Origin: Mesoterricola silvestris
GTDB lineage: Bacteria; Acidobacteriota; Holophagae; Holophagales; Holophagaceae
Length of the DNA stretch: 64,000 bases
Direction of reading: 5' to 3'
Assembly: GCF_030295405.1 (NCBI RefSeq)
Contig: NZ_AP027080.1
Location: 2,170,001 to 2,234,000 of the forward strand
A program made the translations under genes and the position numbers. The first letter of the stretch is position 1. Each line of letters opens with the position of its first letter. The notes under the pieces were generated by a model that saw only the letters and a list, made by a program, of their open reading frames with translations, was not told the origin of the DNA and searched no databases. Of the stretch, positions 15,530 through 52,956 are shown piece after piece.

Positions 15530-15585
15530 CCCGTGGCATTTCCCCATTGCGCCGCGTCTCGGGTCCCATCACCAAACGCCCGTCT

Positions 15586-15651
15586 GCCTAACGGTTGTGC
15601 GCAAATCTCATCAACCGACCGGCCTACAACTGGGTCTTAGGGGCTATAGGC
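15586..15651 (+). repeat. attC12, short and degenerate
   Basis: R'' GCCTAAC at 15586 is perfect. The right end is unclear: CTTAGGG at 15636-15642 pairs with the left end, while TATAGGC at 15645-15651 is followed by the usual CATCCC. The short arms GGTTGT / ACAAC pair. At about 60 bases it is half the length of the other sites. Confidence 0.5.
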
Positions 15652-15667
15652 ATCCCTGGAGGCGGCC

Positions 15668-16057: not shown

Positions 16058-16069
16058 ATCCACCTGGGT

Positions 16070-16105
16070 CTCCCAAGCTTGGTCCGGTCAACTCGCGCGT
16101 TAGGC
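16070..16105 (+). repeat. attC13, right half only
   Basis: The right arm CTTGGTCCGGTCAACTCGCG and core GTTAGGC (16099-16105) are present, but I find no matching R'' to the left. A mutated second core GTGAGGG lies at 16131-16137, again 32 bases on. Confidence 0.6.
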
Positions 16106-16495: not shown

Positions 16496-16500
16496 ATCTC

Positions 16501-16782
16501 ATGAGCCGACTTCTTATATTCTTCCCCCTTCTCTTGTCGCTCTCTCTATACGCAGTTGCCCCTGAGTTCAAACCCTTCGATTCCTCCCCAGTGGCCATCA
16601 AGCGCCGGGATGCCTATTCGATCTTTCTTCCAGGCTCTAAACTCCAGCGCTTGACTACGTTTTTAAATACATGCAAAGAACGCGGTGCAGTTGAGATCGA
16701 AGGGAAAAAGTGGGCTGTTTCGGTGAGGTTAACCTTCCCTAGTGAACCTATCTGGCGAGCAGCCTTTCGCACCTTCAATTAA
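16501..16782 (+). CDS. Cassette 15 gene: small exported protein, 93 aa
   Basis: The ATG at 16501 starts only 6 bases after the attC14 core, so the gene has almost no leader. The protein begins with a signal-peptide-like MSRLLIFFPLLLSLSLYAVA, cleaved probably after AVA. The short mature part (KPFDSSPVAIKRRDAYSIFL, WAVSVRLTFPSEPIWRAAF) has no known family. Without a nearby ribosome site, translation may be weak. Confidence 0.6.
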   Translation: MSRLLIFFPLLLSLSLYAVAPEFKPFDSSPVAIKRRDAYSIFLPGSKLQRLTTFLNTCKERGAVEIEGKKWAVSVRLTFPSEPIWRAAFRTFN

Positions 16783-16833
16783 GGCAAAATATTTCGCGCC
16801 GTGTCATCTGGCCACATCATCAATCGCACGTCT

Positions 16834-16878
16834 CCCTAACATGCCTGCCCAGCCATTCCGCGCCGAGGGGTGTTAGGC
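16834..16878 (+). repeat. attC15, very short
   Basis: CCCTAAC at 16834 and GTTAGGC at 16872-16878, only 45 bases apart in total. The ends pair as CCTAACA / TGTTAGG with CC / GG beyond. It is less than half the usual length in this array. Confidence 0.55.
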
Positions 16879-16932
16879 TTGCACCATCAACCCAATCCAA
16901 GTTTGGAATTACCGATCACCCTGGGTTCAGTG

Positions 16933-17074
16933 GAGTGCCGGACCGGATTTCCTCCCGAACCCGGTCCCGCAGCCTGTGGGGCCTGGCCGGGCCCGGCCGA
17001 TCGGTCTCGTCCGATTCCAGGCCCTGCATCCCGGTGCGGGGGCTGGGTTCGGACGGAAAGGGCAGGGGGGACAT
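16933..17074 (-). pseudogene. Truncated intI copy (N-terminal fragment)
   Basis: Translation on the minus strand from the ATG at 17074 gives [18 protein letters not shown] and continues to DRVREEIR, matching residues 2-44 of IntI with a few changes. A missing C then shifts the frame and homology ends near 16933. All catalytic parts are absent. It is part of a second integron head together with attI2. Confidence 0.9.
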
Positions 17075-17381
17075 GGCTGACTTCGATTCGCGAAATTTCC
17101 GCAAAACGCAGGGCTCCCATCAAGCCTGTCAAGGTCGGCAAACCCGGTTTGCCGCGAAGGCCCTGAACCTTCGATGGTTCGCCAGCATCCCTCTCCCGGG
17201 ACCCTATGGCCCCCTCCGCGCCTGTCGCCCAATCAGGATCCAGTCCGGAAGAGGCGGCATTCCGAGGTCCCCCAATGCTAGGACCACATTCATCCGGAAC
17301 CTTTTGCATGTGCGTCCAAGCCATTGCAGAATGAAGAAAACAGCCCTCCCGAAGCGATGCGCCCAAGCCCACACAAGGATC

Positions 17382-17474
17382 AATACCGACTCACCCCAGG
17401 CGGTTCGGGCCAATAATTTCCCCGGTCTTTACACGCCAGCGTTCGATTCCCCGTCCGACGCCCAAGGGTTAGGC
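17382..17474 (+). other. attI2, second integration site inside the array
   Basis: 84 bases (17382-17465) are identical to attI1, followed by the core GTTAGGC at 17468-17474. The sequence from here back to the intI fragment (16933) corresponds to the region between intI and attI1 with scattered changes. The complete identity next to the core contrasts with divergence farther away. Confidence 0.85.
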
Positions 17475-17521
17475 ATTGACCACCACCAATCGACAATGCT
17501 TTACCCGTCATAGGAGTCCGA

Positions 17522-17950
17522 ATGAAATTCACAACAGGGCTCTCAATTCTTTTCCTAACCGCGCTACCGCTCATGGCGGTAGAAGACACTGAGGCAAATC
17601 GACTCAAAGCCGCTGAAAGGTATCTTGCGGCAACACCTGTCTCGGAATTGATGAATGATCTGGTAGAGCAAATGGGCAAGAACCAACCTTCCGAAAAGCA
17701 AGCTTGGATTAAAACGGTTATGACAAATTGCCTGGACATGAAGGCCATTGAGACAATCATGAGGAAGTCAATGATTAAAACCTTCACCGCAGATGAGTTG
17801 AATGCTCTGGCTGACTTCTACGCATCTCCTTACGGGAAGTCCGCTATGAAAAAATTTGGCCTATATATGGCCGATGCAATGCCGGAAACTCAGCAGGAAA
17901 TCATGAAGGCAGTTGAGAAGTCAAAGGCGATGATCCCAGAGCCAAAATAG
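17522..17950 (+). CDS. Cassette 16 gene: DUF2059-like exported protein
   Basis: The first gene after attI2. It has a signal peptide (TGLSILFLTALPLMAVE, cleavage after LMA) and a helical mature part. The segments YLAATPVSELMNDLVEQMG, FTADELNALADFYASPYGKS and the closing QQEIMKAVEKSKA fit the DUF2059 family, small periplasmic helical proteins of unknown role found in many Gram-negative bacteria. A strong ribosome site (AGGAG, 7 bases) precedes the ATG. Base composition is poorer in GC than the host. Confidence 0.85.
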   Translation: MKFTTGLSILFLTALPLMAVEDTEANRLKAAERYLAATPVSELMNDLVEQMGKNQPSEKQAWIKTVMTNCLDMKAIETIMRKSMIKTFTADELNALADFYASPYGKSAMKKFGLYMADAMPETQQEIMKAVEKSKAMIPEPK

Positions 17951-17991
17951 CTCAGCCCATCCGGTCCGACGAGGTACTATTCACGCGTCGG

Positions 17992-18117
17992 TCCAAGCCC
18001 AGCCTTCGAGGTCGGACCCCAACCTGCGCTGCTCCCCTTGGTGGTATCGTCATTCCGACCCCCCTCCTCCTCCACTCGCGCCGCCAGGTTGGGGCCGACT
18101 CACCTTCGGCGTCATGC
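17992..18117 (+). repeat. attC16, decayed type A
   Basis: Inner arms and flanks clearly match type A, but both cores are damaged: R'' reads TCCAAGC (17992) and R' reads GTCATGC (18111-18117). This site has probably lost function, so cassette 16 may be fixed. Confidence 0.8.
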
Positions 18118-18145
18118 GTCCCTCACATCCATCATGGAGGTACAG

Positions 18146-18604
18146 ATGAAACCAAGCTTGCTCTTATCAATACCGTTTTTGTCCGCCCTTCTCGGCTGCG
18201 GCATTATTGGCAATTACCAACGCATTAATTTGTACCCCGTGAATAGCACGGGCATGAATCAACCCTTGAATGGCACTATCTATAATCTATCTGGAAAGAT
18301 CAAACTTACATTAGCCAATGGTACCGAATATCAAGGTGAGTTGTTTAAGGTAGCGAGACCTCAAGATCCCAGTGACACTTTATATTCTGATAAGTTGGGA
18401 TTCCCAAAAAACTGGGATGCCGTTTATGGCGATCATTATTACTCAAAGAATGTTTTGGGTTCAGAGAGGTACTGGCGCTGCAACCTGACAACCACTTCGA
18501 CCGATTCCATATACCTGGAAATAATCCGACCCAACTTGAATTCAGACATCCGCCTCGGTGTAGCCGTGGACTCCAAGGGGCAAGCATACAAGGTCACGTT
18601 CTAA
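18146..18604 (+). CDS. Cassette 17 gene: lipoprotein, 152 aa
   Basis: A lipoprotein signal is clear: LLLSIPFLSALLGCGIIG with lipobox LLGC. The mature part is strand-rich (NGTIYNLSGKIKLTLANG, YQGELFKVARP, SIYLEIIRPNLNSDIRLGVA), suggesting a small beta-sandwich protein in the periplasm or outer membrane. The ribosome site GGAGG lies 7 bases before the ATG at 18146. Family unknown. It is the last cassette and lies between two decayed attC sites. Confidence 0.75.
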   Translation: MKPSLLLSIPFLSALLGCGIIGNYQRINLYPVNSTGMNQPLNGTIYNLSGKIKLTLANGTEYQGELFKVARPQDPSDTLYSDKLGFPKNWDAVYGDHYYSKNVLGSERYWRCNLTTTSTDSIYLEIIRPNLNSDIRLGVAVDSKGQAYKVTF

Positions 18605-18625
18605 AATCCGTAATTGATCGCCGAC

Positions 18626-18735
18626 GCCTGACCCCTGGCTCAACCCGGACCCCGCCGGCATTGTCCGCCGCTCTCTCTCGGCTTCACCCTTCCTCGACTT
18701 CGCTCAGCGCCTCGGCACAGGCGGGGTGGTTAGCC
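18626..18735 (+). repeat. attC17 candidate, strongly decayed
   Basis: GCCTGAC at 18626 and GTTAGCC at 18729-18735 with partly pairing arms (CCCGGACCCCGCC / GGCGGGGT). It would mark the right end of the array. Confidence 0.5.
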
Positions 18736-18853
18736 TCATCTCCACGCCCCGGTTTTGGCCATGCTTCGCCAGAACCTGGCGCCTGCGGTCTCCCGGCACC
18801 TGGGCTACTCCCGCAATACCCTCTACCGGAGGATGGAGAAGTTGGGGATATGA
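18734..18853 (+). pseudogene. Remnant of a Fis-type DNA-binding C-terminus
   Basis: The frame ends with QNLAPAVSRHLGYSRNTLYR, then RMEKLGI and a stop, the typical Fis/NtrC-family helix-turn-helix that closes sigma54-dependent regulators. No ATPase or receiver domain precedes it; upstream the frame meets a stop at the attC17 core. It looks like the stump left when the integron array, or a deletion, removed the rest of a regulator gene. Confidence 0.75.
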
Positions 18854-18905
18854 TGGTCATCTAATGCCGCCCCGCCCATGCCGTTGACTCTGGGGGTATG
18901 GATTC

Positions 18906-19859
18906 ATGACGCATTCCGTTTTTTCCGTGTTACTGATGGCTGCATGTTTGGCCGCTCCGAGCGCGGGCTGTGCCCAGGCCCAGGACCCACCCGTCCGGGC
19001 GGACAATCGCGACCCCAGCTTCGTGCCGTACGTCCCGATGCCCATGCCCGCCACCGCCTCCTTCAAGGAGGTGAGGGACGACCTCGCCGCGCTCCTGAGG
19101 GAGCGGAAAAGACCGGTGGGCGTCAGATTCGGGAGGCGCGGGCCCGCCCAGCCCGACTTCAACCGCCTGGAGAACGCCCACCAGCTCATCGAGCTCATAA
19201 AGGGGGGAGGGACGGGGGACAACATCGTCCGGCTTCAGTACGATAAGCAGAAGCAGTTCGAATACATCCTCCTCAAGGCGGTTGCGGTGGTGGATGAACG
19301 GATCGAGCTCGGACCCGGCTTCGCCTTTCCCTTCCGCGACGTCCTGGAGGGGCCGATCACCGTCACCAGGCTCAAGGACGGGGCCTATCCCTTCGTCATC
19401 CAGCTCCAGAACCAGCTCTCCTTCCGCTTCGACGCCAAGGACCTGGGCGATGCGAAACGCATGGCTGATGACCTGGAATTCCTGAGGCGGCATTATGCCG
19501 GTCTGGAGGAGGGCAGGGCGGCCCAGTCCGAAACCCTGGCCGCCCAGTACCGCGCCCTGAAGACCAAGCCCCCCGTTTCGGAAGCGCAACGAAGATTCAT
19601 CGTCCAGGCCAACGCCTACAACCAGATGAAGAACTACGAGCAGGCCCTGGAGCATTACCAGAAGGCCCTGGACCTGGAGCCCCTGTCCTACCCGGCGGCT
19701 TACTTCAACATGGCTCTGCTTTCGGCCCAACTGGGGCGTTACCGCGCGGCGATGGCGTACATGAAGCAGTACCTGCTGCTGGAGCCCGAGGCCAAGGATG
19801 CCCGGAGCGGGCAGGACAAGATCTACGAATGGGAAATCATGGCGGGAAGTTCGCGATGA
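18906..19859 (+). CDS. Exported TPR-containing protein, 317 aa
   Basis: The N-terminus (SVFSVLLMAACLAAPSAGCA) is a signal peptide, possibly of lipoprotein type (SAGC). The middle part (90-200) is a mixed domain I do not recognise. The C-terminal third holds tetratricopeptide repeats (QANAYNQMKNYEQALEHYQK, ALDLEPLSYPAAYFNMALLS, YMKQYLLLEPEAKDA), which bind partner proteins. It probably works in the periplasm. The stop overlaps the start of the next gene (ATGA), so the two are translated together. Confidence 0.85.
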   Translation: MTHSVFSVLLMAACLAAPSAGCAQAQDPPVRADNRDPSFVPYVPMPMPATASFKEVRDDLAALLRERKRPVGVRFGRRGPAQPDFNRLENAHQLIELIKGGGTGDNIVRLQYDKQKQFEYILLKAVAVVDERIELGPGFAFPFRDVLEGPITVTRLKDGAYPFVIQLQNQLSFRFDAKDLGDAKRMADDLEFLRRHYAGLEEGRAAQSETLAAQYRALKTKPPVSEAQRRFIVQANAYNQMKNYEQALEHYQKALDLEPLSYPAAYFNMALLSAQLGRYRAAMAYMKQYLLLEPEAKDARSGQDKIYEWEIMAGSSR

Positions 19860-21334
19860 AGTCCTTCCTGGGCCTGTTGAAGGGCTCGATGGTGTTGGCG
19901 AGCCTGTTGGCCAGCCAAGTATTCCTGGATGGCCAGACCGTGCCGAGCGCCTCCAGGCCCGTTTGCATCTACTGCAACACACCGCTGCCCAATGGCACCC
20001 ACGCCCGGAGCTGCCCCTACTACGCGGGCGGCAAGCCCGCGGCGGGTTCCAGCCGGAAGCCCGGTTCCGACGTGAAGGCGGCCCTGGTGGGAAGCCTGTT
20101 CCAGAACCTGCTGACGTCCCTGTTCGCCTCCGATGCCGTCGGGGATCAGAAGGAAGCGGCCGCGCAGGCCGCTGCCCTGGCGGCGGCCCGGGCTTCGGAG
20201 GCCCAGAGGAACAAGGACCGGATCGCCCAGGCCGAATACCTGAGGATGATGCAGTCCTACAAGCAGCTGGACGATGGCCCGGGAGCGGCGTACAAGACCC
20301 TGGCGAACACCGACCTGGAGTTCAAGTCCCTGGATGCCGAGACCCTCGCGGCCGGCGCCAGGGCCCCCTTCGACACGCCCTCCAGGGGGGAAAGCGTTGC
20401 GACGACGTTCTTCGGGGACAGCATGCCCTTGGAGGACCTGCGCCTGCTCGTCAATCCCGGGCAGGATCCCCGGATTGTGGATCTCACCAAGGCACAGCGC
20501 CTAGTCGGGGCGAAACTCAAGGAGGACGGGCCGCGACTGGTGGCGCTCATCCGCAAGGTGGAGGAAGAGGGTGGGAGCCCCATCCCCCTCAAAGCCCCGG
20601 ACTGCGCCAAGCTCGCCCGGTTCCTGAAGGGTTCGATGGAGCAGAGAAGCCAATTCCAGAAGACCCTCCAGTCGGCCCAGGAACAGCTGACCACCTGGGA
20701 GACCGCCAACCGCAACGCCCTGCTCAACGCCGCCAAGGATGGGTTGGAGTTCCTTTCCGGACAGATCCTGGACAGCCTCAGCAAGCGGGGTGAAGCCGCC
20801 GCCCGGCTCCAGCGGATCTACGACCGGAAATCCGGCCAGATGGCCAAGGACGGGCTCGACGTGGTGGCCATCCAGGCCAAGATCGAGCGCCTTCAAAAGC
20901 TTTCTTCATCCGGACAGGTCGCGGACTTCGTCAGCAGCATGAACGACAGGCAGGCCTTCACGAAGGATGGACTTTCCGCCCTGGTGGCCCAGCTGAAGGC
21001 ATCCAACACGGACCTGGAAGGGCTCTTCCGTGAGCCTGGCCTTGAGGACTATTTCGGCGGCGAGGCGCCAGAACTGCGCGTACTCCTCGATATCACCAAG
21101 ATCGCCGCCTCGAACGAAGTGCTCGGCAAGTGGGTCGCCCGGAAGATCCCGCTCTTCGCCGGGGTCGAACTGGCGATCAACCAGACCTACAACGCCCTGG
21201 ACTGGTACACCAGCTTCAAGCGGGTCATGGAAGCCAACGAGATCAACGGACGGGTGCAGGAGGCGGCAGAGGCCATCCAGAAGAATATCGATCATGCCTA
21301 TATGCAATTAAGGGACTGCCCGGGAAGCCTTTGA
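19856..21334 (+). CDS. Large exported protein with Cys motif and coiled coils, 492 aa
   Basis: After a signal-like segment (LKGSMVLASLLASQVFLDG) comes a compact Cys motif, CIYCNTPLPNGTHARSCPYY, which could bind zinc. Then follow a low-complexity hinge (GGKPAAGSSRKPGSD), an Ala-rich helix (EAAAQAAALAAARASEA), and a long helical body with predicted coiled coils. No family is recognisable. The first codons overlap the upstream TPR gene by 4 bases, so the two products probably form a complex. I use the ATG at 19856; a start nine codons upstream lies inside the TPR gene. Confidence 0.8.
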   Translation: MKSFLGLLKGSMVLASLLASQVFLDGQTVPSASRPVCIYCNTPLPNGTHARSCPYYAGGKPAAGSSRKPGSDVKAALVGSLFQNLLTSLFASDAVGDQKEAAAQAAALAAARASEAQRNKDRIAQAEYLRMMQSYKQLDDGPGAAYKTLANTDLEFKSLDAETLAAGARAPFDTPSRGESVATTFFGDSMPLEDLRLLVNPGQDPRIVDLTKAQRLVGAKLKEDGPRLVALIRKVEEEGGSPIPLKAPDCAKLARFLKGSMEQRSQFQKTLQSAQEQLTTWETANRNALLNAAKDGLEFLSGQILDSLSKRGEAAARLQRIYDRKSGQMAKDGLDVVAIQAKIERLQKLSSSGQVADFVSSMNDRQAFTKDGLSALVAQLKASNTDLEGLFREPGLEDYFGGEAPELRVLLDITKIAASNEVLGKWVARKIPLFAGVELAINQTYNALDWYTSFKRVMEANEINGRVQEAAEAIQKNIDHAYMQLRDCPGSL

Positions 21335-21400
21335 TTCTCCCCCGGCCGGGCGGGCTCGCCCCGTCCAGCCATCCAGCCTAGGAATGTGAACAGGTGAGTC

Positions 21401-21577
21401 ATGAGGCCACGACCGTTCTCGATCCCGTTTGTCGTCGCCGGGCTGAGCAGCTTCCTTTCTGGATGCGGGCAACCCCAGGCGCATGACCAAATCCCCCAAG
21501 CGGAATTTCAAAAAAGTGCCAATGGCTGCTTCGTGTCGCCCATCGTCCGGTTTAATATTACCGAATGGGTAATGTAG
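21401..21577 (+). CDS. Small lipoprotein, 58 aa
   Basis: A short gene starting MRPRPFSIPFVVAGLSSFLS followed by GCG, a clear lipoprotein signal with lipobox LSGC. The mature part has about 37 residues and contains one more Cys. AGGTGA lies 3-8 bases before the ATG. The stop lies 13 bases inside the next gene, which suggests coupling. Its role is unknown. Confidence 0.55.
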   Translation: MRPRPFSIPFVVAGLSSFLSGCGQPQAHDQIPQAEFQKSANGCFVSPIVRFNITEWVM

Positions 21578-22032
21578 AGCCTCCTGCTATCCGCTCCCTC
21601 AAGCGTTCCGACTATGCCCAATGGCGCCCCCTCTGGGATGGTTACAACGCTTTCTACGGCCGCATCGGCGCCACCGCCCTGCCCGAGGAAATCACTGCAT
21701 CCACATGGAACAAGTTTTTCGATCCGTCGGAACCCGTGCATGCGCTGGTGGCCGAGGACGCTGGCCAGATTGTCGGCATGGTTCATTACCTGTTTCACCG
21801 CAGCACGACACGATTGAACGACGTCTGCTACTTGCAGGATCTGTTCACCGCCGAGTCGTGCCGGGGTCGGGGTATTGCAGGGCAACTCATCCGCGCGGTG
21901 TATGCCGCTGCGGCCGCGGCTGGCAGTTCCAGGGTCTACTGGCAAACCCATAACACCAACCGTTCCGGTCGAGCGGCATACGACAAATTAGCCGAGCACC
22001 TTGGCTCCATCGTCTACACGCATGACCTTTGA
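21565..22032 (+). CDS. GNAT family N-acetyltransferase
   Basis: A 155-residue acetyltransferase of the GNAT fold. IRSLKRSDYAQWRPLWDGY is the first strand-helix, VHALVAEDAGQIVGMVHYLF the central strands, LQDLFTAESCRGRGIAGQLI holds the acetyl-CoA loop (CRGRGIA, of the Q/RxxGxG/A type), and VYWQTHNTNRSGRAAYDKLA the last strand-helix. It transfers acetyl from acetyl-CoA to an amine; the substrate cannot be told. The layout matches small soluble N-acetyltransferases. The start overlaps the small lipoprotein gene by 13 bases. Confidence 0.92.
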   Translation: MGNVEPPAIRSLKRSDYAQWRPLWDGYNAFYGRIGATALPEEITASTWNKFFDPSEPVHALVAEDAGQIVGMVHYLFHRSTTRLNDVCYLQDLFTAESCRGRGIAGQLIRAVYAAAAAAGSSRVYWQTHNTNRSGRAAYDKLAEHLGSIVYTHDL

Positions 22033-22151
22033 TTTGCCCCTGGCCTCATTCAACGCCCTAGCCCCTCAGTACCCGGCCGCACCGCACGTTGTGGATGAAA
22101 GGATCTGGGCTAGGCGGCGAGAATGACCCGAATGCCCCCTGGGAGATTCTG

Positions 22152-22712
22152 ATGAAGACCCAGTACTACACGGCCTCAAGCCTCGATGGCTTCATCGCCA
22201 CGGAGGAGGATTCCCTCGACTGGCTGTTCCCGCTCGGCGACATCAACGAAACCAGTTATCCGGACTTCATCCAGGAGGTCGGAGCGCTGGCCATGGGCTC
22301 CTCCACCTATGAGTGGATGCTCCGTCATGGTGTCGAACCGGGAACCGGGGCCCCTCAGTCCTGGCCCTACGCTCAGCCAACGTGGGTCTTCTCGACGCGA
22401 CAGCTCGAACCCGTTCCAGGGGCAGACATCCGGTTCGTTCAGGGCGAGGTTCGGCGGGTCCACGATGAGATGAGACGGGCGGCTCGGGAAAAGAACATCT
22501 GGATCGTCGGCGGCGGCGACCTGGTTGGCCAGTTCCATGACGCGGGGCTCCTTGATGAAATCATTGTCCAGATTGGTTCCGTCACGTTGGGCAAGGGCAA
22601 GCCGCTCCTTCCCCGCCGAATCATCGGCGCCTCCGCCTTGCGCCTGACCTCCGTCCAACGGTTCGGTCCCGGGTTCGCGGAACTCCGGTACGAGGTCCCC
22701 GCGCGCCCTTGA
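22152..22712 (+). CDS. Dihydrofolate-reductase-fold protein (RibD C-terminal family)
   Basis: The sequence YYTASSLDGFIATEEDSLDW opens the fold typical of the RibD C-terminal / DHFR-like family, NADPH-dependent reductases. ALAMGSSTYEWMLRHG and IWIVGGGDLVGQFHDAGLLD follow; the latter contains the nucleotide-binding GGG. Many such stand-alone proteins have unknown substrates, and this one is probably not a true folate reductase or part of riboflavin synthesis. The ATG at 22152 has GGGAGA 7 bases upstream. 186 residues is the usual length. Confidence 0.9.
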   Translation: MKTQYYTASSLDGFIATEEDSLDWLFPLGDINETSYPDFIQEVGALAMGSSTYEWMLRHGVEPGTGAPQSWPYAQPTWVFSTRQLEPVPGADIRFVQGEVRRVHDEMRRAAREKNIWIVGGGDLVGQFHDAGLLDEIIVQIGSVTLGKGKPLLPRRIIGASALRLTSVQRFGPGFAELRYEVPARP

Positions 22713-22869
22713 GTGTGCTGATCAAGGCGTCGGCGCGGCGGATGGTGGGTCTGTTGGTGGACGGACTGCGCTTTGGAGCGGAAAATCAAGAACCATGAGC
22801 GTATTCGCTTCCCTCAATTCCGGGTTCAGAATTGAGGGTCACGAAACGAATCCTTTCCAGGAGGGCGCC

Positions 22870-23103
22870 ATGCCGCCAGGGCTGATCATCTTCCTCGCCT
22901 TGATGGGAATCGCATTGATCTGCTGGTTGCTGCTTCGATCCCGGTTCTACCGGGAGGCCCTTGGCGATCTCGAAGGGATGCGGAACGCACCGGAAAACAG
23001 GATGGGCGCCACCGGTTTGCAGAATGCCAATCCGCTTTATCAGTTGTCGAACGATGACGATGGGAAGAAGCCCAAGGGAGCTAGGGGCGCGGGGTCGCCT
23101 TGA
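22870..23103 (+). CDS. Small single-pass membrane protein, 77 aa
   Basis: One transmembrane helix (PGLIIFLALMGIALICWLLL) is followed by a charged cytoplasmic tail (RSRFYREALGDLEGMRNAPE) and a Lys/Gly-rich end. A ribosome site CAGGAGG precedes the ATG at 22870, which I prefer to the longer frame from 22795. The 3' end overlaps the convergent gene by 23 bases. Function unknown. Confidence 0.65.
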   Translation: MPPGLIIFLALMGIALICWLLLRSRFYREALGDLEGMRNAPENRMGATGLQNANPLYQLSNDDDGKKPKGARGAGSP

Positions 23104-23431
23104 CGGGCCAGGGGAACCAGGCTTCGGCGTCGGCGTCGCAACAGCGTTCCCAGGACTTGCCTTCGGTGTAGAACTCCTCCCGGTCCCGGTCGCAGGCCCT
23201 GAAGGCCACCAGGCGGTCCTGGGGCTTGGGCGGGGTGGGCATGTGCATCCAATGAGTGGGGAAGCAGGGGACCTTGAAGCCGGAACCATCCGGGTCCCGC
23301 AGCCACTGTCCGTTCTGGCTGCGCATGGCGGTCGCGAGCATGGCATCGTCGCCATCCTCCCCGAAGGAGCCGCGCCCGATAAGAATGCTTCCGTCCCTGG
23401 GGGCGGATTCGATATGCCTCCATTCACTCAT
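23081..23431 (-). CDS. Small cytosolic protein of the SAPRDGS type, 116 aa
   Basis: The opening EWRHIESAPRDGSILIGRG matches a small protein type found in phages and bacterial chromosomes (W..IE.AP.DG..I), with no known activity. Trp, Cys and His are frequent (FPTHWMHMP, WERCCDADAEAWFPW). The ATG at 23431 is preceded by GAGG; a GTG two codons upstream is a possible alternative. It could be a phage remnant, but no other phage gene is near. Confidence 0.7.
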   Translation of the reverse strand: MSEWRHIESAPRDGSILIGRGSFGEDGDDAMLATAMRSQNGQWLRDPDGSGFKVPCFPTHWMHMPTPPKPQDRLVAFRACDRDREEFYTEGKSWERCCDADAEAWFPWPVKATPRP

Positions 23432-23523
23432 GGTCACCTCAATCCCGATGGTACAATTATGGCTGAAACGTCAGGTGATTCGGTCACAATGGACGTGCTG
23501 CCGGGGTGCGCCGGGAGGTTTGA

Positions 23524-24129
23524 TTGTTGACTCCATTCAACTCAGGCAAGCTTGTTAAATTCCCGTTTCTGCTTGGTTGTGCCGGTTCACTGTTGTGGTC
23601 CCAAGGCCCTCTTCTACAGGTCAATGCAGGACTGGGTAATGCGGATAGCAAATGGAACATGCAGCGGCGTCATCCCAATGATTTCCGCGAATGGGCGGAT
23701 GTATTGATCGGTGCTGAACTGGGGGCAGTGTTCCCCTTTTCATCGAACCAGCGCGGAAGATTCGTCCTGGGCGGAACCGGCGGCACGATCTCCAATTATC
23801 AGGTGGGTGCCGACTACCAGTGGTCCTTGATCCGGAATCAGGAGAGGGATCTGTACGTGTTCGCCGGGCCATCCCTGAACTTCATTTCTGGAACCTATAC
23901 GGTCAGGAATGGATTTGTTCCGCCCGATGGCAGCGGGGACTACCGGGATGTCTCCCAGCGTTGGCGGCCTGGGATCAAATTCGGTGTCGGGTTTCAATGG
24001 GCAAAACATTGGGCTGGTGAACTGGATGCGCATCTGATCCACATGGCCACCTCCGGTCCGGACGCCGTGCCCGAGGCCACGACGGGCTACGTTTCGGCGG
24101 TCGTTTCGTTTCGATTCTCCGCAAGGTGA
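23524..24129 (+). CDS. Outer-membrane beta-barrel protein, 201 aa
   Basis: A signal peptide (FPFLLGCAGSLLWSQG) is followed by alternating strand segments ending in aromatic residues (GRFVLGGTGGTISNYQVGAD, RDLYVFAGPSLNFISGTYTV, FGVGFQWAKHWAGELDAHLI), and the chain closes with YVSAVVSFRF, close to the canonical C-terminal Phe strand. This is an eight-strand OmpA-like barrel layout. I chose the TTG start at 23524 because GGGAGG lies at the right distance; no ATG in frame has a better site. Confidence 0.8.
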   Translation: MLTPFNSGKLVKFPFLLGCAGSLLWSQGPLLQVNAGLGNADSKWNMQRRHPNDFREWADVLIGAELGAVFPFSSNQRGRFVLGGTGGTISNYQVGADYQWSLIRNQERDLYVFAGPSLNFISGTYTVRNGFVPPDGSGDYRDVSQRWRPGIKFGVGFQWAKHWAGELDAHLIHMATSGPDAVPEATTGYVSAVVSFRFSAR

Positions 24130-30681: not shown

Positions 30682-30800
30682 ACCTGAAACGCCCCCTGAT
30701 CCGGTCACAAGGACCGCCGGTCCGGGTTGTGACGCAGTTGCGCCCCCTCCGGGCCGGGGCGCGGCATACTGGATGGGTTGCACGTCTTGCAACGACGCAG

Positions 30801-30942
30801 GTTCTTCAGGGCGGGGTGAAAGTCCCCACCGGCGGTAGGGTCAGGTCCGAGGACCAACCGAGCCCGCGAGCGCCCGTCAACCACGGGGTCAGCAGATCCG
30901 GTCCAAATCCGGAGCCGACGGTGAGAGTCCGGATGAGAGAAG
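30801..30942 (+). ncRNA. FMN riboswitch (RFN element)
   Basis: The conserved pieces of the RFN element are in order: TTCAGGGCGGGGTGAAAGTC, CCCACCGGCGGTAGG, then TCAGGTCCGAGGACC, AGCAGATCCGGT, CCAAATCCGGAGCCGACGGT and GAGAGTCCGGATGAGAGAAG. FMN binding normally blocks expression of riboflavin genes. Here the ribosome site AAGGAG (30940-30945) lies at the 3' edge of the aptamer, so control is probably at translation initiation. Confidence 0.95.
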
Positions 30943-30951
30943 GAGCGATCC

Positions 30952-31581
30952 ATGCCGATGGGCGATGTGGAAGGTGCGGTCCGTGCGTTCCGGGAGGGCA
31001 GGGCGGTGGTCCTGGTGGACGATCCGGGCCGGGAGAACGAGGGGGATCTGATCATCCCCGCGGAAAAGATCAACGAAAGAATCATGGCCATGATGATCCG
31101 GGAGTGCAGCGGGATCGTCTGCCTGTGCATCGAGGAGGACGTGGCGCGGCGCCTGGACCTGCCCCAGATGGTGGAGGTCAACGAAAGCCGGAACCGCACC
31201 GCCTTCACGGTGTCCATCGAGGCACGGGAGGGCGTGACCACGGGCGTGTCCGCCCACGACCGGGTGGTGACCATCCTCACGGCCATCCACCCGGGGGCGG
31301 TGCCGGGGGACCTGGCCCGGCCGGGCCACGTGTTCCCCCTGCGGGGGCACCGGGACGGGCTGCGGGGGCGCCAGGGCCACACGGAGGGCTCCATCGCCCT
31401 GGCGCGCAGGGCCGGATTCCGGCCCATGGCCGTGCTCTGCGAACTGATGAACCCGGACGGCACCATGATGCGGGGGCCCGAATTGCACCGGTTCGCGGAG
31501 CTGCACGGCTTTCCCCTCCTGGCGGTGGAGGATCTCGTGGAGGCCGAGGCCTTGGCGGTTCAGGGCACTTTGAACCCGTAG
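30952..31581 (+). CDS. ribB: 3,4-dihydroxy-2-butanone 4-phosphate synthase
   Basis: Makes the four-carbon precursor of riboflavin from ribulose 5-phosphate. Conserved parts are visible: VVLVDDPGRENEGDLIIPAE with acidic metal-binding residues, ECSGIVCL, EGVTTGVSAHDR, GHVFPLRGHRDGLRGRQGHT and GSIALARRAGF. At 209 residues it is a single-domain RibB without the GTP cyclohydrolase II half seen in fused RibBA. It lies directly behind an FMN riboswitch and its 3' end overlaps the convergent cytochrome gene by 22 bases. Its place between two flavoprotein modules suggests a link to cofactor supply. Confidence 0.96.
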   Translation: MPMGDVEGAVRAFREGRAVVLVDDPGRENEGDLIIPAEKINERIMAMMIRECSGIVCLCIEEDVARRLDLPQMVEVNESRNRTAFTVSIEAREGVTTGVSAHDRVVTILTAIHPGAVPGDLARPGHVFPLRGHRDGLRGRQGHTEGSIALARRAGFRPMAVLCELMNPDGTMMRGPELHRFAELHGFPLLAVEDLVEAEALAVQGTLNP

Positions 31582-40582: not shown

Positions 40583-40610
40583 TTGACAATTGGACTATCA
40601 ACAATATATT
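40583..40610 (+). promoter_or_regulatory. Sigma70-like promoter of the metallopeptidase-MBL operon
   Basis: A perfect -35 TTGACA (40583-40588), a 16-base spacer and TATATT (40605-40610) lie in an AT-rich island (about 40540-40660) that stands out in this GC-rich DNA. The first gene starts 102 bases downstream. The rest of the 516-base gap (40195-40711) shows no gene. Confidence 0.7.
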
Positions 40611-40711
40611 TCAGATGCTCTAGAAAGCATGGAAAGATAACTAAAATCGTAATTGTTATTCCCTGGGATCCATGGCTGGAACGCCCGTGGATGGGGATAG
40701 GGAGGCGGCCG

Positions 40712-42670
40712 ATGCTACGGTCCTTCAACCCGCCGTTCATGGAAAAATCCAACCCCAGGAAAGGTTCCCAGGGAGTGCCCGTGGCCTACCCGCCCCCTTT
40801 CCGGCGTTTGCGGGGCTATGCCTTCGATCCGAGCCTCTCGCTTCACCTGGAAACCGCCTCCATCAATCACGCGGTCTTCGAGATTCCGTGGGAGGTGGGC
40901 CTGGAGCCGGGGCCCACGGGGGAGTACGTGCGGGTCCTGGACGTGGACGCGGCCAGCCAGTGCTGGTACGAACCCGTGGACCTCAATGAACTGGAAATCG
41001 CCGCCCAGAACGGGCTCCCGCCCTCGGAGGGGAATCCCCAGTTCCATCAGCAGATGGTCTATGCGGCGGCGGTGAACACCATCTGCAACTTCGAGCAGGC
41101 GCTGGGGCGCCCGGTGTTCTGGGCGCCCCTGTACGACGACACGCGGCCGCCGGGCAAGAAGGAGGTCTTCATCCAGCACCTTCGCCTCTATCCCCACGCC
41201 ATCCGGGCGGCCAACGCGTACTACAGTCCGGCCAAGCGGGCCATTCTCTTCGGGTACTTCCCGGGGCCGTCGGGGATGGTGTTCTCGTGCCTTTCCAGCG
41301 ATATCATCGCCCACGAAACGACCCACGCCCTCCTGGACGGGCTGCACCGGCGGTACCTGGAGGACACCAACGAGGACGTCCTGGCCTTCCATGAAGGCTT
41401 CGCGGACCTGGTGGCCCTCTTCCAGCATTTCACCTTCCCGGAGGTGCTCCGCCACCAGATCCGCAAGACCCGGGGGGACCTGGCGCTGCCCTCCCTCCTG
41501 GGGGAGCTGGCCCGGGAGTTCGGCGAAGCCACGGGCGGGTACGGCGCCCTGAGGAGCGCCATCGGGACCTGGGACGAGAAGGGCGCCTGGAGGCCCATCG
41601 AGCCGGACCCGGAGCGGCTCCGGACGGTCCAGGAACCCCACGACCGGGGGGCCGTCCTCGTGGCGGCGGTGTTCGGCGCCTTCCTGGCGGTGAACAAGGC
41701 CCGGTGCGAGGATCTGCTGCGCCTGGCCACGGGCGGCACCGGCGTGCTCCCCGCCGGGGCCATCGGGGGGGACCTGGTGGATCGTCTCGCCGTGGAGACC
41801 AACAAGACCGCGGGGACCTTCCTGACGGTCTGCATCCGGGCCCTGGACTACACCCCCTGGACCGACCTGACCTTCGGGGACTACCTGCGGGCCCTGATCA
41901 CGGCGGACCACGACATGGTCCCCGACGACCGCATCGGCCTGCGGGTGGCGCTCATCGAGTCCTTCCGGCGCTGGGGCATCGTCCCCGCGGGCCTCAAAGT
42001 GCTCTCGGAGGAGCAGCTGCGCTGGCCCTACGCGGCCCAGGACCTGGATCCGCGCGAACGGAAGGTGCTGACCAAGGCGGCCTCCGCCCTCCGTTCCAGG
42101 ATCACGGAGACGCTCTTCCTCCAGGACCGGGAGGCGCTTTTCGAGAAGCTCCGGGAGGCCCGGCGGTTCACCCACGAGTACCTCCGTTCCGCCCTGGCCG
42201 CGGACGCCGACCCCGTCACCCGTTCCGCCTTCGAGCGCACCACGGGGCTGAGCCTGGACCCGGGGCTTCCGGGGATCTTCCTGAACGAACGCCAGGAAGT
42301 GGCCTTCGAGGTCCACGCGCTGTACCCCGCGCTCCGGGTGAGCCCCTCCGGGACCACGCTGAAGCAGCTGGTGGTCACCGTCGCCCAGCGGCGGAGGCTG
42401 CCCGTGGACCCGGAGGATCCGGACCGGGGCACCTTCGATTTCCGCGGCGGGGCCACCCTCATCTTCGACCTGGAAGGGAAGGAACCCCGGCTGCGCTACA
42501 CCATCCCGCGCCCCATCGACAGCGGGGAGCGCCTCGCCGCGATCCGGGCCTACTTCAGGCGCAGGGGCCTGGAGGGCGTGGGGCTGCGGGCCACCTATTT
42601 CGGAGCGCCCCCGCCGGGCGGAATGGACCTCGAGGACGAATGCTTCGGCCTCCTTCACGGGGAGAGGTGA
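40712..42670 (+). CDS. Gluzincin-type metallopeptidase-like protein, 652 aa
   Basis: A large cytoplasmic protein without signal peptide. The zinc-peptidase motif HETTH (201-205) in SSDIIAHETTHALLDGLHRR is followed 23 residues later by a likely third ligand, Glu228, in FHEGFADLVALFQHF, the thermolysin-like gluzincin layout. The C-terminal ~250 residues are a separate region (RRFTHEYLRSALAADADP, YTIPRPIDSGERLAAIRAYF) that I do not recognise. The ATG at 40712 has a strong GGGAGG; frames upstream cross the AT-rich promoter. It leads a three-gene unit: 4 bases separate it from the MBL gene. Confidence 0.85.
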   Translation: MLRSFNPPFMEKSNPRKGSQGVPVAYPPPFRRLRGYAFDPSLSLHLETASINHAVFEIPWEVGLEPGPTGEYVRVLDVDAASQCWYEPVDLNELEIAAQNGLPPSEGNPQFHQQMVYAAAVNTICNFEQALGRPVFWAPLYDDTRPPGKKEVFIQHLRLYPHAIRAANAYYSPAKRAILFGYFPGPSGMVFSCLSSDIIAHETTHALLDGLHRRYLEDTNEDVLAFHEGFADLVALFQHFTFPEVLRHQIRKTRGDLALPSLLGELAREFGEATGGYGALRSAIGTWDEKGAWRPIEPDPERLRTVQEPHDRGAVLVAAVFGAFLAVNKARCEDLLRLATGGTGVLPAGAIGGDLVDRLAVETNKTAGTFLTVCIRALDYTPWTDLTFGDYLRALITADHDMVPDDRIGLRVALIESFRRWGIVPAGLKVLSEEQLRWPYAAQDLDPRERKVLTKAASALRSRITETLFLQDREALFEKLREARRFTHEYLRSALAADADPVTRSAFERTTGLSLDPGLPGIFLNERQEVAFEVHALYPALRVSPSGTTLKQLVVTVAQRRRLPVDPEDPDRGTFDFRGGATLIFDLEGKEPRLRYTIPRPIDSGERLAAIRAYFRRRGLEGVGLRATYFGAPPPGGMDLEDECFGLLHGER

Positions 42671-42674
42671 CGCC

Positions 42675-44165
42675 ATGACCGCTGCGCACGGATCGGGAAC
42701 CAAGGGCGGCAAGGACGTGACGATCCGCATGTACCGGCACGGCCTGGGGGACTGCTTCCTGCTGGGCCTGCCCAGGGCCCAGGGGGGCGGGTTCCACGTG
42801 CTCATCGACTGCGGGCTGATCTCCGGCGTCGCGGGCGCCCGGGAGACGATGCGCGAGGTGGTGGGCTCCATCCGCGAAGCCTGCGGGGACCACCTGGACC
42901 TGGCCGTCATCACCCACGCCCACTGGGACCACGTCTCCGCCTTCTCCCGGGAGCAGGCCCAGGACCTCTTTGAGGACGGCATGGCCATCGACGAGGTGTG
43001 GTACGCCTGGACCGAGGATCCCACCGACAAGCTCGGCCAGAAGCTGCGCCGGGAGCGCGGGGCCAAGCTCGCCGCCCTGGCCAAGGCCTCCCCGGCCCTG
43101 GCGAAGCTGGGCGAGGCGGGCTCGGCCCGGATGCTGGAGCGGCGCGCCCGGGTGGACAATCTCCTGCAGTTCTACGGCCTGGAGGGAGCCGCGAGCCTGG
43201 GGGCGGCCTCCGCGGATGCCGGCAGGACCGCCGCGGCCTTCGAATACCTCGCCCGGCGCCACGGGGTGCGCACCCGCTACCTGGCTCCCGGGGACCCGCC
43301 CCGGGCCCTGCCCGGCGTGGAGGGGGTCCGGGTCTACGCGGTGGGCCCCCCCCGGAACGAGGCCCTGCTCAAGCGCAGCGACCCGACCCGGAAGGGCAGG
43401 GAGGTCTACGAATTCGTCTCGGATGAGGCCCAGGGGGAATGCCTTGGGGCGGCCTTCGACCGGGTCACCGGCCCCACGGCCGACGATTCCGACTGCCCCT
43501 TCGAGGCCTCCTTCTGCCGGGGCCCCGGCCGCCGCGCACCCTCGGCCCAGCTGGCCCGGCTCATCCAGGAGGTGTACGACGCCAAGGACATGGCCTGGCG
43601 CCGGGTGGACGACGACTGGACCGCGGCGGCCGAGACCCTGGCCCTGAACCTGGACAGCCACACCAACAACACCAGCCTCGTGCTGGCCTTCGAACTCACC
43701 GGGAGCGGCGGCGTGCTGCTCTTCGCGGCGGACGCCCAGGTGGGAAACTGGTTGTCCTGGCAGGACGTGACCTGGGAGGTCCCGGAGGCCGGCGGAACCC
43801 GCAGCCGGGTCACCGGCGCGGACCTGCTCCGGCGGACGGTGTTCTACAAGGTGGGTCACCACGGAAGCCACAACGCGACCCTGCGGGAGCTGGGCCTGGA
43901 ACAGATGGCCAGCGAGGACCTGGTCGCCGCCGTCCCGGTCTCCGTCGCCCAGGCAAAAGCCAAGCGTTGGACCCAGATGCCCTTCAAGCCGCTGATGGAG
44001 CGCCTCGCCCAGAAGACCGGGGGCCGGGTGCTGGTCAGCGATGTGCAGGCGGCGGCGCCCACCCTCCGGACCCTCGGAGCGCTGAACAAGGCGCAGCGCG
44101 CCGGCTTCCTCAAGGCCTTGAAGGAGGAGCCCCTCTACTACGAACTTTCGATCCCTTTGGCGTAG
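42675..44165 (+). CDS. Metallo-beta-lactamase-fold hydrolase, ComEC-like
   Basis: A 496-residue protein without membrane helices. It opens with IRMYRHGLGDCFLLGLP and VLIDCGL, holds the metal motif THAHWDHVSAF (HxHxDH, residues 81-86), and near the end a DAQVGNW Asp and the segment YKVGHHGSHNATLRELGLEQ, typical of the ComEC/Rec2 soluble MBL domain. Such domains act on nucleic acid or nucleotides in other systems; the substrate here is unknown. An insert of ~150 helical residues lies between the first and later motifs. AGAGGTGA precedes the ATG. Confidence 0.9.
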   Translation: MTAAHGSGTKGGKDVTIRMYRHGLGDCFLLGLPRAQGGGFHVLIDCGLISGVAGARETMREVVGSIREACGDHLDLAVITHAHWDHVSAFSREQAQDLFEDGMAIDEVWYAWTEDPTDKLGQKLRRERGAKLAALAKASPALAKLGEAGSARMLERRARVDNLLQFYGLEGAASLGAASADAGRTAAAFEYLARRHGVRTRYLAPGDPPRALPGVEGVRVYAVGPPRNEALLKRSDPTRKGREVYEFVSDEAQGECLGAAFDRVTGPTADDSDCPFEASFCRGPGRRAPSAQLARLIQEVYDAKDMAWRRVDDDWTAAAETLALNLDSHTNNTSLVLAFELTGSGGVLLFAADAQVGNWLSWQDVTWEVPEAGGTRSRVTGADLLRRTVFYKVGHHGSHNATLRELGLEQMASEDLVAAVPVSVAQAKAKRWTQMPFKPLMERLAQKTGGRVLVSDVQAAAPTLRTLGALNKAQRAGFLKALKEEPLYYELSIPLA

Positions 44166-44212
44166 GCTGGACCCCGCGCGGTCCGCGCCCGCCCCCTGCT
44201 GGAGACGACCCC

Positions 44213-45010
44213 ATGGCGGATGCATTCCTCGACCCGGCGGGCACCCGGGACCTGATCGTGGGCACCTGGGCCGAGATCGTGCCCCTCTCCCCTTCCGAAC
44301 GGGGGGACAAGGAACGGGAGATCGGCCGGCTCCTGGAGCGCGCCGCCGGGCAGTTCCCGCCGCCCTTCGGCTCGCCCAGCGAGGAGGTGGACCGGATGCT
44401 GGCGCTGACCGGTCGGCTCACCCAGTCCGGTCTCCTGGAACTGGGGTCGGCGAACCTGTGGCCGGATACGCCGGGCCTGCTGTTCCGGGGGATCCTGGAG
44501 GAGGGCGTCCTGCGGGCCCTGGGGGACCTGGATGGCCTGGATTCCCCCTCGTCCCGGGCGGCCGCCCTGGAGGGCCTGCTGCCGGTTCCCCGGACCCACC
44601 TGGCCATCGCCCAGTTCCGGGGGACGGGGAGCCTGGACCGGGACCAGGTGGAGAGCCAGGCCAGTGACATGCTCCGGTTCGCGGGCAAGGCCTGGGGGTG
44701 GTCCCGGGACAACGGCCCGGAGATCTTCCCCCTGCTCCTGGGCGTCACGGGGGCCCTGGTGGCCGCCCTGCTGCGCCAGCCCCACCGGACCCCCAGCACG
44801 GCCGGCGAAGTGCTGTGGGCCCTGGATACCGTCCATTACGCCGTGGACCGCTGCGCGGACGAGCATCGGCTGGCCACGGGGGGAATCGCGGGACTGGAGG
44901 CCAAGGTCCGGCGCGCCGCCCAGGCGACCCTGGCCGCCCTTTCGGCCCCGGACCACGCGCCCTACGACCGCAACGAAATCGCCACCCGGTTCGCGCGGAA
45001 TTGGGCATAA
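44213..45010 (+). CDS. Helical protein of unknown function, 265 aa
   Basis: The third gene of the unit, 47 bases after the MBL gene. The product is helical, with an acidic start (MADAFLDPAGTRDLIVGTWA), a central hydrophobic stretch (EIFPLLLGVTGALVAALLR) that might enter or touch a membrane, and a Cys/His-containing helix near the end (VHYAVDRCADEHRLATGG). No known family is apparent. A GGAG ribosome site lies 9 bases before the ATG at 44213. Its constant place behind a peptidase and an MBL protein would suggest a partner or target role. Confidence 0.75.
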   Translation: MADAFLDPAGTRDLIVGTWAEIVPLSPSERGDKEREIGRLLERAAGQFPPPFGSPSEEVDRMLALTGRLTQSGLLELGSANLWPDTPGLLFRGILEEGVLRALGDLDGLDSPSSRAAALEGLLPVPRTHLAIAQFRGTGSLDRDQVESQASDMLRFAGKAWGWSRDNGPEIFPLLLGVTGALVAALLRQPHRTPSTAGEVLWALDTVHYAVDRCADEHRLATGGIAGLEAKVRRAAQATLAALSAPDHAPYDRNEIATRFARNWA

Positions 45011-51047: not shown

Positions 51048-51324
51048 GTGCGCCACGAAAGGCGCTTCATCTCCCAGGAGGTCCAAATAAAACAACCTGA
51101 GAGATAGCAGCTGTGCTGCATGAGAGATGGGGGTAGGCCCCCCGGGGTCGGGCTGCAGGGCCAGATCCCAAACCACCGGGCGCTGCGTGGGGGTGACACC
51201 CCAGGTGGTGAGCGGACCCGGAAAAGGCGGGGGAACCCCCGTCAGGTAGGGACAGGGAAGGCGAACAAAAGTGAACCGCTGATGAGGCGTCGAAAGAGAT
51301 CAAAAGCCATCGAAACCAGGCTCC

Positions 51325-51331: not shown

Positions 51332-51612
51332 GTCCTGGGACCAAGCCCGGAAGGGACCTGCTTACGGTCCGGGCGGTGGCCGGCGTAGAAGCGGCGCGAG
51401 CCCTGTCCAGGCTCTTGTGTGGAACGTGGGAACCGAGCGTCCCGATGCCAAGGGAGAAGTCCGAGGGGTAGTCCCCCGTAGGGCGAGAGTACCGAAGCGG
51501 GGCGCCGGGGCGGACCGGTCCGTAGTAGCGACGATGCCCGGTAATGCGGGTGGAGCCAAGGGACCGGCCTGTCCGGCTTCAAATGCGGGTCAACCCTCCG
51601 GGGGAAGAGCAC

Positions 51613-52893
51613 GTGTCTGAAGCGAAGCCTTACAGCATTTCCAGGGAACAGGTCGCCGAGGCATGGCGTCTGGTCCGGGCCAACCGGGGAGCAGGGGGCG
51701 TGGATGGAGAAACCCTGTCGATGTTTGACAAGGATCTGGAGGGCAACCTCTACAAGATCTGGAATCGGATGTCGTCGGGCAGCTACTTCCCGCCGCCGGT
51801 GAAGCGGGTGGAGATTCCCAAAAAGGACGGCCGGACGAGACCCTTGGGCATTCCGACCGTGGCGGACCGAGTGGCCCAGATGGTAGCCAAGCAGGTATTG
51901 GAGCCTTTGGTGGAACCCATGTTCCACGAGGACTCCTACGGCTATCGGCCGGGTCGTTCGGCACTGGATGCCGTAGCAAAGGCAAGGGAGCGCTGCTGGC
52001 GCCTGGACTGGGTCATCGATCTGGATATCAAAGGATTCTTTGATAACCTGCCGCATGACCTGATCCTCAAGGCGGTTCGGCACCATACCGAGTCGGATTC
52101 GGCCCTGAAGTGGATCCCCCTGTACGTGGAACGGTGGCTCAAGGCCCCGGCCCAACGGGAGGACGGAACCCTGCAGGAACGGACGGCGGGAACGCCGCAG
52201 GGCGGGGTGATCAGCCCATTGCTGGCCAACCTGTTCATGCACTATGCGTTCGATGCCTGGATGGGGCGGGTCTTTCCGAACGTCCCGTTCGAGCGGTATG
52301 CCGACGATGCGGTGATCCATTGCGTGAGCCTGGCCCAGGCCAAATACGTCCTGGAAGGGGTGCGCAGGCGATTGAAGGACAAGGGGCTGGAACTCCACCC
52401 GGAGAAAACGAAGATCGTCTACTGTAAGGACGATTCGCGCCCGGGGGACCATGACCACACGGCCTTCGACTTCCTGAGCTACACCTTTCGGGGGCGGTCG
52501 GTGAAGACCCGGGACGGAAAGCTCTTTGTGGGCTTCAATCCGGCCATGAGCGACAAGGCGAAGAAGGCCGCTCGGGAAGCCATCCGGGAGTGGAAACTGA
52601 CGACGAAGATGAACACCAAGACCCTGAGCGAGCTTGCCTCGTTCATCAATCCCATCGTCAGGGGATGGGTCAACTACTATGGGCGGTTCCACCGCTCGGA
52701 GTGCCTGGAACTTCTCGACTACCTGAATCTGGTCCTGGCCCGCTGGGCCAAACGGAAATACAAGCGGTTCCACCGGGACTGGACGGCAGCCTTTCGTTGG
52801 TTGGGCGACATTGCCCACCAGCGGCAAGAAGGGCTGTTCTACCACTGGACCCTGGGAATACGACCTGGAGGCTGGGCAGGACGAGCCGGATGA
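51613..52893 (+). CDS. Group II intron reverse transcriptase / maturase
   Basis: 426 residues. The RT domain shows the usual blocks: WRLVRANRGAGGVDGETLSM (block 0/1), VEIPKKDGRTRPLGIPTVAD, YGYRPGRSALDAV, DLDIKGFFDNLPHDL, GTPQGGVISPLLANLFMHYA and the catalytic FERYADDAVIH. The maturase region X follows (~310-400: FINPIVRGWVNYYGRF). There is no C-terminal HNH endonuclease. The GTG at 51613 (SEAKPYSISREQ) with GGGGGAAG upstream is the usual start for this family. The frame is intact, and the stop lies 11 bases inside domain V. Confidence 0.95.
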   Translation: MSEAKPYSISREQVAEAWRLVRANRGAGGVDGETLSMFDKDLEGNLYKIWNRMSSGSYFPPPVKRVEIPKKDGRTRPLGIPTVADRVAQMVAKQVLEPLVEPMFHEDSYGYRPGRSALDAVAKARERCWRLDWVIDLDIKGFFDNLPHDLILKAVRHHTESDSALKWIPLYVERWLKAPAQREDGTLQERTAGTPQGGVISPLLANLFMHYAFDAWMGRVFPNVPFERYADDAVIHCVSLAQAKYVLEGVRRRLKDKGLELHPEKTKIVYCKDDSRPGDHDHTAFDFLSYTFRGRSVKTRDGKLFVGFNPAMSDKAKKAAREAIREWKLTTKMNTKTLSELASFINPIVRGWVNYYGRFHRSECLELLDYLNLVLARWAKRKYKRFHRDWTAAFRWLGDIAHQRQEGLFYHWTLGIRPGGWAGRAG

Positions 52894-52916
52894 GGTGAGA
52901 GTCTCACGTCCGGATC
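52883..52916 (+). other. Group II intron domain V
   Basis: A 34-base hairpin beginning GAGCCGGATGAGGTGAGAGT and closing in CTCACGTCCGGATC, with the catalytic AGC triad near its 5' end. This is the most conserved part of any group II intron. Confidence 0.93.
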
Positions 52917-52956
52917 CGTGAGGGCGCGGGGGGGCAGTTCCCCCGCGCTACTCGAC

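Follow-up and report, generated by a model that had tools for sequence, protein, structure and literature searches.

HamM and Avs1a are metallo-β-lactamase (MBL) pro-nucleases (DNases); two insertions gate these enzymes, and a trypsin-like partner protease switches them on. Canu (caspase-nuclease) systems use a caspase, and homologs of these nucleases also occur with proteases of other families, metalloproteases not being named in the main text (Tuck et al., Science 2025, PMC12799240). Here we describe a gene pair that may be among those other-family pairings. It lies in a window of 64,000 nucleotides (the whole stretch of DNA analyzed) from the Acidobacteriota species Mesoterricola silvestris (NZ_AP027080.1, positions 2,170,001 to 2,234,000 of the forward strand; positions below are counted from the first letter of the window) and encodes P0001, a gluzincin metallopeptidase, and P0002, a ComEC-type MBL-fold protein. 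A preliminary description of the window had stated that MBL proteins of this kind occur with proteases in several proposed bacterial conflict systems, and the protease-activated MBL nucleases just cited are a close precedent. The pair is a hitherto unnamed conserved module that is real and mobile, and its role is probably in defense. On analogy with the gated nucleases we favor, with somewhat better than even confidence, a mobile protease-nuclease immune module in which P0001 would activate the DNase P0002.

Conservation of the gene pair

The operon consists of three genes on the plus strand, at 40691-42670 (P0001), 42675-44165 (P0002), and 44213-45010 (P0003), leaving 4 bases between the first and second and 47 between the second and third. 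Scanning bacterial and archaeal genomes with the peptidase yielded at least 539 related stretches, the best 80 of which were analyzed as loci. These belong to Pseudomonadota, Bacteroidota, Planctomycetota, Acidobacteriota, Chloroflexota, Gemmatimonadota, and others, and include one euryarchaeal metagenome-assembled genome. An MBL gene directly follows the peptidase gene in 76 of the 78 loci with enough downstream sequence (median gap, 57 bases); conversely, an independent search with the MBL protein found the peptidase upstream in all eight of the strongest P0002 relatives. The distance matrices of the two proteins are correlated (Mantel r, 0.66; 0 of 2,000 permutations as high). Four of 100 relatives of the host carry the peptidase, one of them as a partial distant match, so genes 1 and 2 are neither found only separately nor kept in all relatives as housekeeping genes.

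The metallopeptidase

P0001 has 659 residues, and its motifs, AlphaFold2 model, and structural matches all point to an M36/M4-fold gluzincin. The zinc-binding and catalytic motif HETTH occupies residues 208 to 212 (41312-41326), and the third zinc ligand lies in the segment E235 to D239 (HExFAD; 41393-41407), as in the NEAISD of thermolysin. Both HETTH and a downstream Glu, now Glu235, had been noted in the preliminary description; H208, E209, H212, E235, and D239 are invariant across an alignment of 63 P0001 homologs, and HETTH is therefore not a chance motif. The model is confident (pLDDT 87), and its residues 38 to 442 match the M36 fungalysin 7z6t (VIA Z score of 24.1 over 321 residues, rmsd 4.1) and M4 thermolysin (VIA Z score of 18.5). 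By these fold matches and the zinc motif, the modeled protein is a member of the thermolysin clan.

A P0001 profile aligns only weakly with thermolysin and aureolysin around E235 to D239 (E values of 0.2 to 0.6), P0001 itself matches nothing in Pfam (up to an E value of 1), NCBIfam, PADLOC, or PHROGs, and a single one of the 63 homologs matches Pfam M4 (E = 0.0068). P0001 thus shares its fold and its HExxH-plus-Glu zinc site with the M36 and M4 enzymes but is only ~11 to 13% identical to them and has no Pfam assignment. It also differs from them in being paired with an MBL protein and in an extra C-terminal region of helices and β-structure (residues ~454 to 637; 42050-42601; from the AlphaFold secondary structure) that the structural matches barely cover. 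Inspection of the protein sequences of the operon, made without a dedicated predictor, revealed no apparent signal peptide. With neither a signal peptide nor a propeptide apparent in P0001, we reject a secreted protease operon; the peptidase is predicted to be cytosolic, which again sets it apart from the M36 and M4 enzymes.

The MBL-fold protein and its insertions

P0002, a predicted pro-nuclease of 496 residues, was classified from its model, its structural match to ComEC, and its match to the PADLOC LmuA model (2.9e-12). The motifs HxHxDH (metal binding; residues 81 to 86; 42915-42932) and GHHGSH (residues 394 to 399; 43854-43871), which had already caught the eye in the preliminary description, are present, and their key residues H81, H83, D85, H86, H395, and H396 are invariant across 59 P0002 homologs. 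In the model (pLDDT 89), P0002 superposes on its best solved relative, the ComEC MBL domain 9ic4, over 257 of 266 residues (VIA Z score of 23.1, rmsd 2.8). Unlike ComEC, it is soluble, has no channel, and carries ~230 residues beyond the nuclease domain, mostly in two large insertions.

Insertion 1 (residues ~113 to 182; 43011-43220) is mostly helical and has a conserved hydrophobic residue, F166, that is F, L, or I among the homologs. Insertion 2 (residues ~227 to 328; 43353-43658), delimited from the model, the alignment, and its entropy, is partly disordered (pLDDT of 52 to 68 at residues ~241 to 280). Within its poorly ordered part is the dipeptide P275-F276 (43497-43502), invariant in 59 of 59 sequences and a candidate cleavage or plug site. 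Alignment entropy is 2.7 to 2.8 in the insertions (2.77 in insertion 1), compared to 1.90 in the core of P0002. We aligned P0002 with the ComEC of the host itself and with Acidobacteriota proteins that match the PADLOC LmuA and NCBIfam Avs1a models; the LmuA-like and Avs1a-like proteins have insertions at the same two sites, one behind the strand that comes next to HxHxDH in the sequence and the other behind the “GP” strand. PADLOC matches among the 59 family members were to LmuA (59), RTasMBL (58), PDC-M48B (39), and Avs1a (35).

The structural matches of P0002 also include the phosphodiesterase Pce/CbpE (Z score of 20.6), and at the sequence level its profile matches ComEC and the cyclic-nucleotide hydrolase Apyc1 about equally well. 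These likenesses would suit an immune or suicide module with a different division of labor. Its main effector would be the peptidase, which, like the zinc protease Lit, would cleave proteins of the host or the phage; the MBL protein would not be its substrate but would serve as a regulator or as a second-messenger or phosphodiester hydrolase. The thermolysin fold with its full catalytic set would fit such a role, as would the Variovorax open reading frames (ORFs) in which the peptidase domain occurs twice in tandem, with HExTH intact in both copies (L084:8117-11854 and L102:7691-11857), and the subtilase added at some loci, as if proteolysis were the output. We nevertheless regard this arrangement as unlikely, since ComEC remains the best structural match, the insertions match those of proven gated nucleases, and the near-obligate pairing and codivergence suit an enzyme and its substrate.

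Variable partners and the third gene

The conserved pair is accompanied by a changing set of additional proteins. Of the 80 loci, 20 have a patatin gene directly upstream and 1 has one downstream, and a Tle1-like lipase (DUF2235, PF09994) flanks the pair in 3; both identities were confirmed by Pfam, and such partners are also found at plasmid copies. An S8 subtilase is fused to the N terminus of the peptidase in 13 loci, with the motif GTSAATP in three cases. In two Hymenobacter plasmids the peptidase is preceded by an AAA ATPase, and one of these ATPases was matched to SMC/RecF-type families. We note that in two other Acidobacteriota genomes (L117:2-2667 and L147:2-2838) LmuA-like and Avs1a-like MBL genes directly follow an apparent S8 subtilase gene, which suggests another protease-MBL pairing.

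In the window, the third position is taken by P0003 (plus strand; 265 residues), an orphan accessory gene outside the conserved core. Its codon-position GC contents (0.76/0.53/0.91) indicate that it is coding, and the one hydrophobic stretch announced in the preliminary description was found at residues 169 to 187 (mean Kyte-Doolittle value of 1.88). P0003 matched no family in Pfam, PADLOC, NCBIfam, or PHROGs, and searches of the first 111 loci, of plasmids, and of viral contigs gave no homolog; 247 genomes gave chance-level partial matches alone (E values of 0.002 to 0.004), and the ORFs that lie downstream in Deinococcus, Rhizobium, and Hymenobacter are not related to P0003. With no convincing relative in any search, it is ruled out as a conserved third component, and the earlier placing of the third gene within the module is not borne out.

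The partner genes raise the question of whether the protease of such a conflict module would activate several zymogens, a lipase (patatin or Tle1-like) as well as the MBL nuclease, in a joint attack on DNA and membrane, with P0003 replacing the lipase in the window. The patatin and Tle1-like genes, plasmid cases included, and the hydrophobic stretch in P0003 are consistent with such a scheme, but many loci lack a lipase and none of those fetched has a sequence relative of P0003, and we think the scheme quite improbable.

Defense-gene neighborhood

Several plasmid copies lie beside known defense genes. On the Agrobacterium plasmid pAtH25_79a, the gene order is patatin, peptidase, MBL, HamA, HamB, with HamA and HamB confirmed by PADLOC, and the Rhizobium plasmid pRle248a has the same order, including Hachiman HamAB, by annotation. 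CBASS cyclase operons are located upstream in two rhizobial plasmids (the cyclase was confirmed for one), and a Septu-like PtuA/HNH pair is located downstream in one; SIR2 genes are found near the module in Methylorubrum, and E1/JAB or ubiquitin-like genes on other plasmids. In a small, annotation-based comparison of six plasmids, each with a matched 19-kb stretch of the same plasmid as its control, defense genes were present at the module in six of six and in one of six controls (Shedu).

Many chromosomal loci, on the other hand, sit among ordinary metabolic or TonB/SusCD genes, as might be expected of an accessory catabolic, stress, or interbacterial-competition unit for intracellular protein and nucleic acid turnover. 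The patchy occurrence among host relatives, the spread across phyla and on plasmids, the homology of P0002 to defense MBLs, and the Hachiman and CBASS neighbors make a function outside defense very unlikely. The conflict module suggested in the preliminary description is supported by the MBL family, the neighboring defense genes, and the protease-MBL precedent, but not with the third gene as a member.

Acquisition, promoter, and base composition

Homologs are found on 63 plasmids. P0001 is 64 to 68% identical to betaproteobacterial proteins and 50% identical to the peptidase of a congener of the host, and the MBL tree places P0002 with Burkholderiales/Betaproteobacteria (support values, 100/99) and the congener's MBL protein (L002) elsewhere. 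The peptidase copy of the congener has a different location, within a longer ORF of subtilase-fusion length. Since the closest kin are betaproteobacterial and the congener has a different version elsewhere, the module was horizontally acquired in the host. The syntenic position in the congener lacks a 22.8-kb stretch (23.5 to 46.3 kb of the window) that holds the operon, in a region that is generally rearranged. The flanks of this stretch (23492-46267) are ~175 bp apart in the congener, and pieces of it are found elsewhere; the region is rearranged and variable.

The ORF of P0001 is open from 40535, and its start codon is inferred, homology beginning near residue 34. A σ70-like promoter, TTGACA-16-TATATT, with 11 of 12 consensus matches, falls within the upstream extension on the plus strand (40583-40610), in an AT-rich leader. 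There are four promoter-like sites in a 600-bp region (0.5 expected), and GC content decreases to 0.52 (per 500 bp) at the promoter. The three genes, their spacings and motifs, and the near-canonical promoter in an AT-rich island were thus all correctly described before. The AT-rich start had also been read as a sign of acquisition; here the conclusion holds, on phylogenetic and positional evidence, but not the argument, since the genes have a genome-like GC content of ~0.66 to 0.75, AT-richness is confined to the leader, and the leader is discounted as a sign of foreign DNA.

A phage-borne origin is not upheld either: phage and viral collections gave fragments or unannotated records only, and nothing matched in PHROGs. 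One unannotated and unverified 9.5-kb record, “Bacteriophage sp.” from human feces (L116:3620-5227), carries a 38% identical peptidase homolog.

Proposed mechanism

In the mechanism that we propose, P0002 would be held inactive by its two insertions, and infection or another trigger would release or activate P0001. Because the architecture is that of HamM and Avs1a with a different class of protease, a metallopeptidase, as partner, we infer that P0001 would cut the P0002 insertions and so release the DNase. Thermolysin-type enzymes prefer to cut just before a bulky hydrophobic residue, and F276 and F166 are therefore candidate sites; cleavage would perhaps occur at the Pro-Phe of insertion 2 and near F166 of insertion 1. 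The freed nuclease would degrade DNA, and phage replication would be stopped by cell death or arrest. Since a sensor ATPase is absent from the operon in the window, the trigger may be sensed by the C-terminal region of P0001 or by P0003, or through the loss of a host inhibitor. P0003 could be an added local component that works as a regulator, as a sensor, or as an effector acting on membranes and fills the place taken elsewhere by the patatin, the Tle1-like lipase, or the fused subtilase.

Several observations weigh against this proposal. In the MBL tree the P0002-type clade stands apart from the LmuA/Avs1a branch (95/98, with long-branch warnings), and insertion 1 is modeled as ordered helices, not as a disordered gate. 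A thermolysin-like cut before Phe276 would have proline in the P1 position, which would be unusual. An automatic screen recognized no third partner in 43 of the 80 loci, at least 2 of which (L073 and L079) do carry divergent patatins. Finally, the defense excess around 20 chromosomal loci is small when proteins are counted: these loci gave 105 PADLOC model matches compared to 3 in matched controls, mostly from a few E1/JAB and kinase proteins. We discount this raw comparison, as 55 models are matched, at a looser threshold, by a single E1/JAB protein.

A bolder formulation would make the module a third class of protease-gated nuclease immunity, with a cytosolic thermolysin-fold zinc peptidase as initiator, a ComEC-type pro-nuclease, and exchangeable lipase, subtilase, or P0003 partners, in hundreds of genomes of many phyla; we offer it tentatively, as slightly short of an even call. 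If true, the gated-nuclease strategy has taken up a protease fold that is otherwise familiar mostly from secreted enzymes of digestion and virulence, and a single DNA-destroying effector can be triggered interchangeably by trypsin, caspase, metallopeptidase, and perhaps subtilase. A peptidase family that has no Pfam name, despite the number of related stretches in one genome collection, would then have a predicted function and testable cut sites.

Other features of the window

On the minus strand, positions 5778-6827 encode a tyrosine recombinase similar to integron integrases; it is followed by a stretch of 50 to 60% GC at ~7 to 19 kb, in which there are at least two attC-like elements (10587-10709 and 13873-13998; GCCTAAC...GTTAGGC); positions 5778-24000 are probably a chromosomal integron cassette array. 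A group II intron was recognized by Rfam domains D1-D4 (51129-51247) and a 3′ part (52881-52956), with an apparent reverse transcriptase ORF at 51544-52893. Within 30798-31581, a flavin mononucleotide (FMN) riboswitch (101.9 bits) directly precedes a short ORF (30952-31581) that by eye resembles the DHBP synthase (RibB) family.

Comparison with known systems

The pair is not Avs1, Hachiman, Lamassu, or Canu, because the defining parts of these systems were tested for and are absent. For AVAST type 1 (Avs1), P0002 scores 26.5 bits against the NCBIfam Avs1a model, whose cutoff is 420, and no STAND NTPase gene was recognized among the neighboring ORFs. Hachiman HamA (DUF1837) and the HamB helicase are absent from the window operon, HamAB being a mere neighbor in two plasmids. 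The SMC-like LmuB ATPase of Lamassu is likewise absent from it; the SMC/RecF-type ATPase and the AAA ATPase that precede the peptidase belong to one Hymenobacter plasmid each. Two papers on conflict systems (PMC7159879 and PMC8195603) mention metallopeptidases, and one of them a subtilase; their main texts contain neither “lactamase” nor “patatin.”

With the gated MBL pro-nucleases (HamM of Hachiman, Avs1a of AVAST, and Lamassu and DRT variants), the module shares a ComEC-like MBL nuclease gene beside a protease gene, intact metal ligands with two insertions between the HxHxDH and GDA/HHGS motifs, adjacency and coevolution of the two genes, and mobility with occurrence in defense islands. It differs in that the protease is a stand-alone M36/M4-fold metallopeptidase, compared to a trypsin domain fused to a defense enzyme, and is encoded upstream of the nuclease; in that the MBL protein is larger and forms a separate clade; and in the missing sensor ATPase. 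Canu has a comparable layout, in which the gene of a gated MBL nuclease comes after that of a stand-alone protease, but no relative of CanB was recognized here, and a zinc metallopeptidase replaces the caspase with its Ig-like domain.

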